From NCBI GenBank assembly GCA_014859105.1, contig JACUUX010000014.1, positions 1 to 55,114 of the forward strand: a stretch of 55,114 nt of DNA, in the 5' to 3' direction. Position numbers and translations under genes: made by a program. Under the pieces are notes generated by a model, which was not told where the DNA came from, did not search any database, and worked only from the letters and a program-made list of their open reading frames with translations. The stretch's first letter is position 1. Each line of letters begins with the position of its first letter. The stretch is from Nitrospirota bacterium (lineage in GTDB: Bacteria > Nitrospirota > Thermodesulfovibrionia > Thermodesulfovibrionales > SM23-35). Shown here piece after piece: positions 14,313 through 41,935 of this stretch.

Positions 14313-15944
14313 TTATACCCTTGCTTCTGCGAATTTGCTATTCCAAAGATAGGCTTGTATTGCCTTCAGCAGTAAGTTGAATGTTGAAGGATCAAGGGCA
14401 GAGATTGTAATAGCATCATAACGTATGGCAAGGTTCTTTGCCTCTCCAAAGTGCAACTTATCTATTTTATTGAAGACTAAAAGTCTTGGCTTTTCATATA
14501 AATTGAGTTCTCTCAGTATACTTTCAACCGACTCTATATGATGTTCAAAGCGGGGGTTTGCCGCATCAACGAGGTGTAAGAGAAGATTGGCATCTTCGAG
14601 TTCTTCAAGAGTGGCTCTAAAAGCAGCCATAAGGTCTTTTGGAATGTCTCTTATGAAACCGACTGTGTCAGTAATTATAACTTCTCTCTCTCTTGGAAAA
14701 CGAAGCCTTCTGCTTGCGGTGTCAAGCGTTGCAAAAAGTTTATCCTCAACAAATACAGAGCTCTTTGTTAGGGAATTGAGAAGTGCGGATTTCCCGGCAT
14801 TCGTATAGCCTATGATGGAGACTATCGGTATGCCCTGTTCGACCCTTCTGTGTTTGCGCTGTCTCCTTGCTTCGCTGAGGGCTCCGAGTTCTTTTTCCAG
14901 GAGAACAATTCTGTCGCGCACTCTCCTTCTGTCTATTTCGAGTTTCATTTCACCCGGTCCTCTTCCACCGATACCGCCCATTAGACGTGACATCGCTGTG
15001 CCTTTGCCTGTCAATCTCGGAAGTCTATATTTTAGCTGTGCAAGCTCCACCTGAACCTTTCCGTCTCTGCTATGGGCACGTTTTGCAAATATATCAAGTA
15101 TAAGTTGAGAGCGGTCGACTACCTTAAGTTCTGTGAGCTCAGCTATTGCCTTTACCTGAGATGGACTGAGTTCCTGGTCGAATATCAGAAGAGTTGCCCC
15201 TTTGTTCAGGGCATTAATAATTAGTTCTTTGATTTTTCCCTCACCCATTAAATACCTGGGGTTGATCTCTTTTGGTCTCTGGATAATGCTGTCAAGAACA
15301 AGAACATCACTTGATTGTGCGAGTTCCATGAGTTCGTTCAGGGAATCTTCCTGCTCATGTTTTGGACTTACAGAGACACTCACCAGGATAGCCCTCTCCC
15401 TTCTCTCATCCGGACTGAATAGCCTGTGCCTCTCCATCTCATCTTCAAGAGACCTTATAAAAGGCAGGAAATCAAATTCGAAATTATAGAAGTTATTGGA
15501 GTGCATTATCTCAAATGGTCTGGTTCCATCTGGCAGCAGGTAAGCAACAAATATGTTTCCCGGTAATCCATTCCTTACGCCTATCGCAGCGATAAGGTCA
15601 AGTCTCAGCAATGCGAGATCGGTAAGGTCATCCTGTGTCAGTGATTCTTCATATAAGTGCGTGTGTACGAGCCTGAGTCCCCTTAATGCCTTTCTACCCA
15701 GGCGGTAATCCGTCAGTTCCGGAATAAATATACCCCTTGCGTTACCCACAATTACGTGAGTTATGTTTCCATCCCTGTTGATTAGTATTCCAATCTGGCA
15801 GTTTATTTCGGAGGAGATTTCTGTCAGATATCTTGCAAGGTCGGATGTTATTAATTCTCGATGTACTTTTCTCCTGTAAATTCTTTCAAGAGATTTTATA
15901 TAACGGGCATTAAGCCCTGATAAATTTCCGTAAATTGCTGGTAT
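14313..15944 (-). CDS. hflX: GTPase HflX (non-AUG start)
   Basis: A ribosome-associated GTPase that splits stalled 70S ribosomes. Motifs: glycine-rich GGIGGRGPGEMKLE linker, GYTNAGKSALLN (G1), DTVGFI (G3), NKID (G4). The frame stays open for 65 codons upstream of the first ATG/GTG/TTG (15749). Those codons encode the expected family N-terminus (IYGNLSGLNARYIKSLERIYRR...). No ATG, GTG or TTG occurs there. A perfect AGGAGG (15951-15956) lies six bases before an ATA codon (15944-15942) that opens PAIYGN. I therefore place the start at ATA. It is 543 residues long and is followed 37 bp later by the AhbD-like gene. Confidence 0.88.
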   Translation of the reverse strand: MPAIYGNLSGLNARYIKSLERIYRRKVHRELITSDLARYLTEISSEINCQIGILINRDGNITHVIVGNARGIFIPELTDYRLGRKALRGLRLVHTHLYEESLTQDDLTDLALLRLDLIAAIGVRNGLPGNIFVAYLLPDGTRPFEIMHSNNFYNFEFDFLPFIRSLEDEMERHRLFSPDERRERAILVSVSVSPKHEQEDSLNELMELAQSSDVLVLDSIIQRPKEINPRYLMGEGKIKELIINALNKGATLLIFDQELSPSQVKAIAELTELKVVDRSQLILDIFAKRAHSRDGKVQVELAQLKYRLPRLTGKGTAMSRLMGGIGGRGPGEMKLEIDRRRVRDRIVLLEKELGALSEARRQRKHRRVEQGIPIVSIIGYTNAGKSALLNSLTKSSVFVEDKLFATLDTASRRLRFPREREVIITDTVGFIRDIPKDLMAAFRATLEELEDANLLLHLVDAANPRFEHHIESVESILRELNLYEKPRLLVFNKIDKLHFGEAKNLAIRYDAITISALDPSTFNLLLKAIQAYLWNSKFAEARV

Positions 15945-15969
15945 ATAAATCCTCCTGTCGTCTATATTT

Positions 15970-16245
15970 TATTTATATTATATCAGATATTGTACTATAT
16001 GGATTAAGTTTAAATACTAAATCACAGATAATCTTTACGGCCTGTAGTTCTCAGGGCAAGCCCGGAGCTTTCACGTGGAAAAAGTTTTTAAAGGCAGCCA
16101 GGGGGGAATCTGACTGCCTCTGGAAGTGATGGTGAGAAAGGCAACCAGAGAATGGATGCCTGATGGGGAGGAATCTTTATTAAATTGTGCTTTTCCCTAT
16201 CTTATTAAAAAATTATGAAGAACTAATGAATAAAATATGAAGAAA
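15970..16245. other. Unexplained intergenic segment, possibly a structured RNA or gene remnant
   Basis: The stretch from about 16030 to 16180 is richer in GC than its flanks and contains nested complementary arms (GGCAG...CTGCC near 16090-16120 and CTCTGG...CCAGAG near 16115-16150). No known RNA family is recognised, and no open frame is convincing. It lies between the hflX start and the terminator after atpE. It could be a small RNA transcribed rightward into that terminator, or a decayed element. Confidence 0.3.
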
Positions 16246-39956: not shown

Positions 39957-40736
39957 TCATTTTATTGCTTCTCTGAGGCTGATAAGGTAATTTTTCAGAT
40001 CGTCGGGATTTTCATGAAGTTTTTTGATTATTGCACTTCCAACTATAACACCGTCCGAAACTGCCGCTACTGCTGATGCTTCCGTGGGTGCAGAGACACC
40101 AAACCCCACAGCAACAGGTTTGTCGGTATATTTCCTTATTTTCGGTATCAATAAATCCATGGAGCCGTCAAGTAGAAGTGAAGAGCCGGTTATGCCTGTT
40201 ATCGAGACATAATAAATAAATCCACTCGATGCCTTTGCCACCTTCTTTATCCTGTCTTCGGTTGATGTAGGTGCAAGAAGGAATATTGTATCAAGCGACG
40301 CCTTTCTTGCATGCTTTATAAAATCTCCAGCTTCGTCAGGAGGTAAATCAGGGACAATCACTCCGTCAATACCCGAGTTTCTGGCGTCTCTAATAAAATC
40401 GTCAATGCCATATTTAAATACAGGATTGAAATATGTCATAAGCACTATGGGTATCCTGATTCTCTGTCTTATATCTTTTACAAAAGAAATGACCTTTTTC
40501 AGGGTTACACCATTTTTCAAAGACCTCTCGGAAGCACGCTGAATTGTTGGGCCGTCTGCAAGCGGGTCTGAAAAAGGCACACCCAGTTCGACTATATCCG
40601 CTCCACACACTTCAAATAAAAGCAAAATGTCTCTCGTTTTATCCAGAGACGGGTCTCCTGCCATAACATAGGGAATGAATGCCTTCTTGCCCTCTTTTTT
40701 TGATTTTTTAAATGCCTCTTCAATTCTTGATTTCAT
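39957..40736 (-). CDS. trpA: Tryptophan synthase alpha chain
   Basis: 259 residues, a TIM barrel that cleaves indole-3-glycerol phosphate to indole. The catalytic Glu lies in [18 protein letters not shown], and the catalytic Asp in [13 protein letters not shown]. Further landmarks are [21 protein letters not shown] and VAVGFGVS. It overlaps trpB by ATGA, which fits assembly of the alpha2beta2 complex that channels indole. Confidence 0.97.
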
Positions 40737-41935
40737 ATTACAATGCCCTTGATATTTGCAACATGCTGCACATCCTTATCCCCGCGTCCGGAAAGGTTTA
40801 CTATGATAATTTTATCTCTGGAAAGTCCCGGGGCAAGTTTTACAACCTCTGCGAGTGCATGGGCAGATTCAAGTGCGGGGATAATGCCTTCCTTTTCTGA
40901 TAAAAGCTCGAAACTTGCTAATGCTTCGGCATCTGTTGCATATGTATACCGGACACGTCCTCTGTCTCTCAGGAAAGAATGCTCCGGGCCTATAGAGGCG
41001 TAATCAAGGCCTGCTGATATGGAATGTGTTCCGAGGACATTACCATCGTCATCCTGCAAGAGATAACTCTTGCATCCCTGGAATACTCCAATCGAACCGC
41101 CTGCAAACCTCGCAGCATGTTCCCCCGTTTGTATACCTTTCCCTCCGGCTTCAACCCCTATCATCTTAATATTTTCACCTAAAAATTCATAGAAAAGTCC
41201 CATAGCATTACTTCCACCACCAACACAGGCTATAAGGTAATCGGGGAGTCTCCCTTCAGCATCGAGTATCTGCTTCCTCGTTTCCCTGCCGATGACCGAC
41301 TGGAATTCTCTTACTAAAAGCGGGAAAGGATGTGGCCCGAATACTGTGCCCAGGACATAATGGGTTGTTCTAACATTGGTCGTCCAGTCACGCAAAGCTT
41401 CGTTGATTGCGTCCTTTAATGTTTTTGAACCTGTAGGTACTTCTGTGACCTTCGCACCGAGAAGTCTCATCCTGAATACATTCAATGCCTGCCTTTTCAT
41501 ATCCTCTGTTCCCATATAAATCTCACAATCGAGGCCTGTGAGTGCTGCACCGGTGGCGGTAGCTACCCCATGCTGCCCGGCACCTGTCTCTGCAATAACT
41601 CTTTTTTTGCCCATCTTCTTTGCAAGCAGTGTCTGCCCCACAGCATTATTTATTTTGTGTGCACCGGTATGTGCGAGGTCTTCGCGCTTAAGATATACTT
41701 TTGCTCCTCCAAGATGTTCTGTAAGACGCTTTGCATAATAAAGCGGTGTGGGCCTGCCTATATAAGTTTTCTGCAGATGTCTGAGTTCGTTCAGGAAATT
41801 CCCATCTTTTCTAGAATACCGGAATGCATCCTCAAGCTCTTTGAGTGCAGGCATAAGGGTTTCTGGCACAAAACGGCCACCATATAAACCAAAATAGCCT
41901 TTTCTGTCAGGTAATTTTTTTATATTATCCTCCAA
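40733..41935 (-). CDS. trpB: Tryptophan synthase beta chain
   Basis: 400 residues, joins indole and serine using pyridoxal phosphate. [12 protein letters not shown], the PLP lysine in [24 protein letters not shown] and the phosphate loop VGGGSNAMG are all present. It is of the classical TrpB1 type. The first gene of the trpB-trpA-accD-folC-lptD operon. No leader peptide or attenuator could be identified in the 92 bp upstream. Confidence 0.97.

Follow-up and report, generated by a model that had tools for sequence, protein, structure and literature searches.

Judged by sequence comparison, hflX, which encodes the ribosome-splitting GTPase HflX, starts at an AUH codon (AUA, AUC or AUU), and selection holds this start non-NUG across the whole phylum Nitrospirota. 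In the window, by which the whole 55,114-nucleotide stretch of a Nitrospirota bacterium analyzed here is meant, the codon is AUA. The reading favored below, which is considered probable though well short of certain, is that translation of Nitrospirota hflX relies on an obligatory weak AUH start behind a strong Shine-Dalgarno (SD) sequence, an arrangement that would make initiation depend on 30S subunits free of IF3, as in infC. The features of the locus are the following.

14313..15944, minus strand: hflX, 543 codons counted from the AUA, its stop ending at 14313, encoding the ribosome-splitting GTPase HflX
15942..15944, minus strand: AUA start codon of hflX; 173 of the 185 Nitrospirota loci have AUH at the homologous position
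15951..15956, minus strand: SD sequence AGGAGG, with a spacer of 6 to ATA
15969..15971, minus strand: in-frame stop TAA, eight codons 5' of the AUA
15977..15985, minus strand: candidate extended -10-like element TGATATAAT, which would give a 5' leader of about 25 nt
15747..15749, minus strand: first in-frame NUG of hflX, GTG at codon 66, not the start; conserved codons lie upstream, and it ends the third strand of the N-domain in the prediction
15411..15944, minus strand: HflX N-terminal domain, residues 1-178, predicted JAMM/MPN-like fold; a GTG start would cost it the first 65 residues

The product matches NCBIfam TIGR03156 (438.9 bits against a cut-off of 216.75) and carries the Pfam domains GTP-bdg_N (PF13167), GTP-bdg_M (PF16360) and MMR_HSR1 (PF01926), and structures of HflX bound to the 50S subunit rank first in a fold search. 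Re-reading of the window confirmed the arrangement on which the preliminary description had based its proposal of AUA initiation: on the minus strand, AGGAGG is followed by six bases, by ATA and then by CCA GCA ATT TAC, and AUG, GUG and UUG are absent from the first 65 codons of the frame. The -10-like element at 15977..15985 was not recovered by a strict two-hexamer promoter scan; among AUH-starting relatives, TANAAT ends 15-40 nt 5' of the start in 77 of 173. RNA structure or a riboswitch at the hflX start was rejected: an Rfam search of the window returned no match, and RNA folding of eight hflX leaders gave no consistent excess.

Homologous starts were read in hflX loci from named genome contigs, 60 relatives and a sample of 148 phylum genomes. 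Removal of duplicates left 185 distinct Nitrospirota loci, which are nearly all metagenome-assembled and are not phylogenetically independent; almost every named match carries the label Nitrospirae, Nitrospirota or Thermodesulfovibrionales. The start is ATA at 79 loci, ATC at 47, ATT at 47 and NUG at 12, with two loci (L133 and L208) hard to assign. All 173 AUH loci have an SD of at least 4 bases, with spacing mostly of 5-10 nt. An in-frame stop lies upstream of the start, with no NUG in between, at 139 of the 173, and at 112 of these 139 NUG is also missing from the first 20 codons. Family f1, to which the window belongs, uses mostly AUA, and family f23 uses AUU or AUC. The preliminary description had looked to close relatives for a possible ATG at this position, and none of 18 relatives from the window's family has NUG there. 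An assembly error at the ATA was rejected, given that AUH is common to many independent genomes.

It is hardly credible that hflX starts elsewhere, whether at the GTG at 15749 or at another codon near the SD, or that the ATA is such an error. The GTG is the first canonical codon of the frame, but codons 2-65 upstream of it have coding periodicity and form part of the N-domain core. Within f1, divergence of these codons is 21% at the first codon position, 10% at the second and 50% at the third; in the sequence upstream of the AUA the corresponding values are 72, 72 and 71%. The AUU at codon 4 is CTT, GTA or GTT in relatives, and an AUU directly after AGGAGG leaves no spacer. Residues 1-178 were modelled by AlphaFold as one domain (mean pLDDT 93, pTM 0.90). 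In this prediction residues 1-66 hold the first strand, a pair of helices and two more strands, all of which a GTG start would remove. Relatives, divergence pattern and N-domain model thus led to rejection of the GTG and of the neighboring AUU codons as starts. The 65 upstream codons encode the conserved HflX N-terminus, as was originally claimed; because their product is selected as protein and lies within the confidently modelled N-domain, hflX starts at the AUA, and initiation there is strongly supported by the relatives' AUH codons, the upstream stops, the codon-position divergence and the model.

A Pfam search with the N-domain (residues 1-178) returned no family matches. In structural comparison of residues 29-158, the nearest proteins were of the JAMM/MPN type, with JAMM proteases best (Z up to 8.1); most of the best 50 matches were JAMM/MPN proteins, at Z of 8.1 to 5.6, which is near the level of common arrangements. 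The JAMM metal motif is EXnHS/THX7SXXD (PMC300881). In the HflX N-domain, a conserved HTH at 94-96 is followed by conserved D106, T108 and D109, which differ from the motif in spacing and in the Ser, and the catalytic Glu of the motif was not identified in this domain.

Parsimony on an N-domain tree gives at least 39 start codon changes, about 31 of them among AUA, AUC and AUU and 6 from AUH to NUG. Third-position changes to G make up about 4 of 35 where one in three is expected (p 0.003), in a test that treats parsimony-reconstructed changes as independent and takes G to be as likely as the other two bases. The third base of the start differs in 12% of f1 pairs, against 50% at other third positions. 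One alternative is that Nitrospirota ribosomes tolerate AUH generally and that the codon drifts without regulatory meaning. Drift is compatible with the occurrence of at least four other AUH genes in the window's genome or family, and of a further GNAT case in the window's genome only. However, parsimony-inferred changes to G fall below the drift expectation, the neighboring genes at the same loci stay AUG or GUG (hemE, AUG at 92 of 93 and UUG at 1 of 93; a radical-SAM gene, AUG at 84 and GUG at 5, another 16 being left unassigned by the script), and a scan for AUH starts in 1.31 Mb, about 41% of the window's genome, yielded no more than a few strong cases from 1146 called ORFs. Drift is accordingly regarded as very improbable. 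The hflX SD is also longer than the SDs of hemE and the radical-SAM gene, in a comparison of related loci for which p values are optimistic. Two traits of infC-type genes are present in hflX, a conserved non-NUG start (173 of 185) and a strong SD that offsets the codon. The near-universal AUH among the sampled loci of the phylum suggests that the start is kept weak on purpose, as in the IF3 gene.

The 12 NUG loci comprise six that are leaderless-like, four that overlap an upstream stop and two that start with UUG. At four Magnetobacterium-like loci (among L064, L082, L085, L175, L179 and L185, the six leaderless-like AUG exceptions), TAAAAT ends 6 nt before the AUG, and at L179 and L185 GATAAT lies 6-7 nt before it; at L185, moreover, an upstream ORF adjoins the gene close to the end of the contig. 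TANAAT within 3-10 nt of the start occurs at none of the 173 AUH loci. A -10-like box 6-7 nt before the AUG fits leaderless transcripts, and the six exceptions look leaderless from their sequence. The four overlapping loci, all of family f16 (L479, L480, L481 and L211), join hflX to the upstream stop via ATGA, GTGA or TGATG, the upstream ORF having 196 codons or more, and the overlap suggests translational coupling. The two UUG loci (L205 and L216) have ordinary weak starts and count against control by IF3.

According to published work, initiation at codons other than AUG, GUG and UUG is repressed by IF3, which controls infC and sigR in this manner (PMC5472188). For model leaderless mRNAs, raised IF3 is inhibitory and infC mutations have an enhancing effect; the action of IF3 on leaderless mRNA varies with concentration and sequence (PMC9031893). 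Since AUH starts with an SD and leaderless starts are both classes reportedly repressed by IF3, hflX is probably co-controlled with infC. With a strong SD and a weak codon, hflX initiation would, like that of infC, track the 30S subunits that lack IF3. An excess of ribosomes over IF3 would lead to synthesis of both IF3, an anti-association factor that holds the subunits separate, and HflX, the factor that splits 70S ribosomes (PMC9067457); ample IF3 would repress both genes. Where lineages acquired AUG, the start would mostly have turned leaderless-like, a class also reportedly repressed by IF3, or have been coupled to an upstream stop. The reading predicts homeostatic control. The data fit the earlier suggestion that hflX translation may be kept low or coupled to initiation fidelity.

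The main rival is that AUH does no more than keep HflX at a constitutively low level, as is reported for E. coli pcnB, and that the level of IF3 is not sensed in physiology. In Staphylococcus aureus reporters, AUA and AUU starts give about 10% of AUG output (PMC13009471), in keeping with such a role. Outside Nitrospirota, hflX is annotated to start with UUG in E. coli and B. velezensis and with GUG in Listeria and Sinorhizobium, so weak starts are common for this gene (UUG in two organisms, GUG in two and AUG in three, the last being Collinsella, a Streptomyces plasmid and Fusobacterium). Among hflX records of the plasmid collection, that of Fusobacterium, with its AUG, alone carries the N-domain; no N-domain relative was found in the viral contigs searched, and blastn against E. 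coli gave no match. Yet a poor SD would be a simpler route to low output, and the SD of hflX is stronger than those of its neighbors; the usual weak starts, UUG and GUG, are nearly absent from Nitrospirota hflX; and the AUG exceptions mostly abandon standard initiation altogether. On balance, a constitutively low level, although a serious rival, is judged unlikely as the full explanation, and dependence on IF3-free 30S subunits is preferred.

Beyond what the preliminary description reported, the non-AUG start of hflX is phylum-wide and a second gene of the same window, trpB, also starts with AUA.

40736-41923, minus strand: trpB, AUA at 41923-41921 behind GGAGG, with TATAAT at 41955-41950

Orthologues of trpB have AUH in f1 and in certain other families, the remaining families having AUG; the gene has an AUH start yet no link to ribosome splitting, and it counts against the IF3 reading of hflX. 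Behind SDs of the GGAGGTG type, infC starts with AUA in the window's order and with AUH at nearly all loci read across the phylum, L461 being ambiguous; hflX and infC are both AUH in the same genomes. A second IF3 gene, a paralogue of infC (L281:13623, G000 C100), has AUA and is present in the window's genome and several family members. The thrS gene (AUU, L284:4488) adjoins infC (AUA, L284:6302) on G000 C45, both with AUH starts; thrS is AUH in the window's family, with GTC once (L303), and that of L284 has no TGS domain match. A yacP/Rae1-like NYN gene (NYN_YacP; L261:4715-5200, G000 C6) starts with AUU; yacP has AUH in almost every family sampled from the window's order and AUG elsewhere in the phylum. 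A family 2 glycosyltransferase gene (L402:6438, minus strand, G000 C103) has an apparent AUC start behind GGAGGT. The AUU start of the GNAT gene (C16) was rejected as a conserved case, the start being AUG in relatives. An unusual initiator tRNA was rejected: the one identified looks ordinary by eye, with CAU as its anticodon, C1 facing C72 and GGG/CCC in the anticodon stem.

A wider proposal, tentative and somewhat doubtful at present, is that IF3 controls a start-codon regulon whose members have AUH behind strong SDs: hflX, infC and the infC paralogue, joined in certain orders or families by the yacP/Rae1-like gene, thrS and trpB. In such a regulon AUH, leaderless AUG and stop-start coupling would be interchangeable reporters of the ratio of IF3 to ribosomes. 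For annotation, gene callers limited to AUG, GUG and UUG are likely to truncate hflX, yacP, thrS and trpB or to give them a wrong start.

Very few bacterial genes are known to keep a non-AUG start; among 61,358 reconstructed AUG starts, a single switch to AUU was seen (PMC5622118). The closest parallel to hflX is infC, which is autoregulated from AUU, AUA or AUC and shares with it the AUH codon, the strong SD, phylum-wide conservation and a product that acts on subunit association; infC is a different gene, and any control of hflX by IF3 would act in trans. With hflX, infC is joined by a second gene that keeps AUH phylum-wide and has a product acting on the step at which IF3 acts, the splitting of 70S ribosomes and the separation of their subunits. 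The pcnB gene of E. coli (cited in PMC13009471), which has an AUU start that limits its translation, is likewise a gene other than infC with a non-AUG start, but its product is not a ribosome-splitting factor. The sigR gene of Streptomyces resembles hflX in having a conserved non-canonical start, behind AGGAGGTG, that gene callers misannotate, and differs in that its start is GTC or GTT, is confined to one genus and has had its IF3 dependence shown experimentally (PMC5472188). In S. aureus, ccpN (AUA) and cvfC1 (AUU) also combine a conserved AUH start with an extended SD, whereas their functions are other than that of HflX and their starts were mapped by ribosome profiling (PMC13009471). No report of a non-AUG start for hflX was found in searches of open-access papers. 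Conserved AUH starts are already known (infC, pcnB, ccpN and cvfC1, together with sigR and its GTC), and hflX is a new case that is unusual for its phylum-wide depth.
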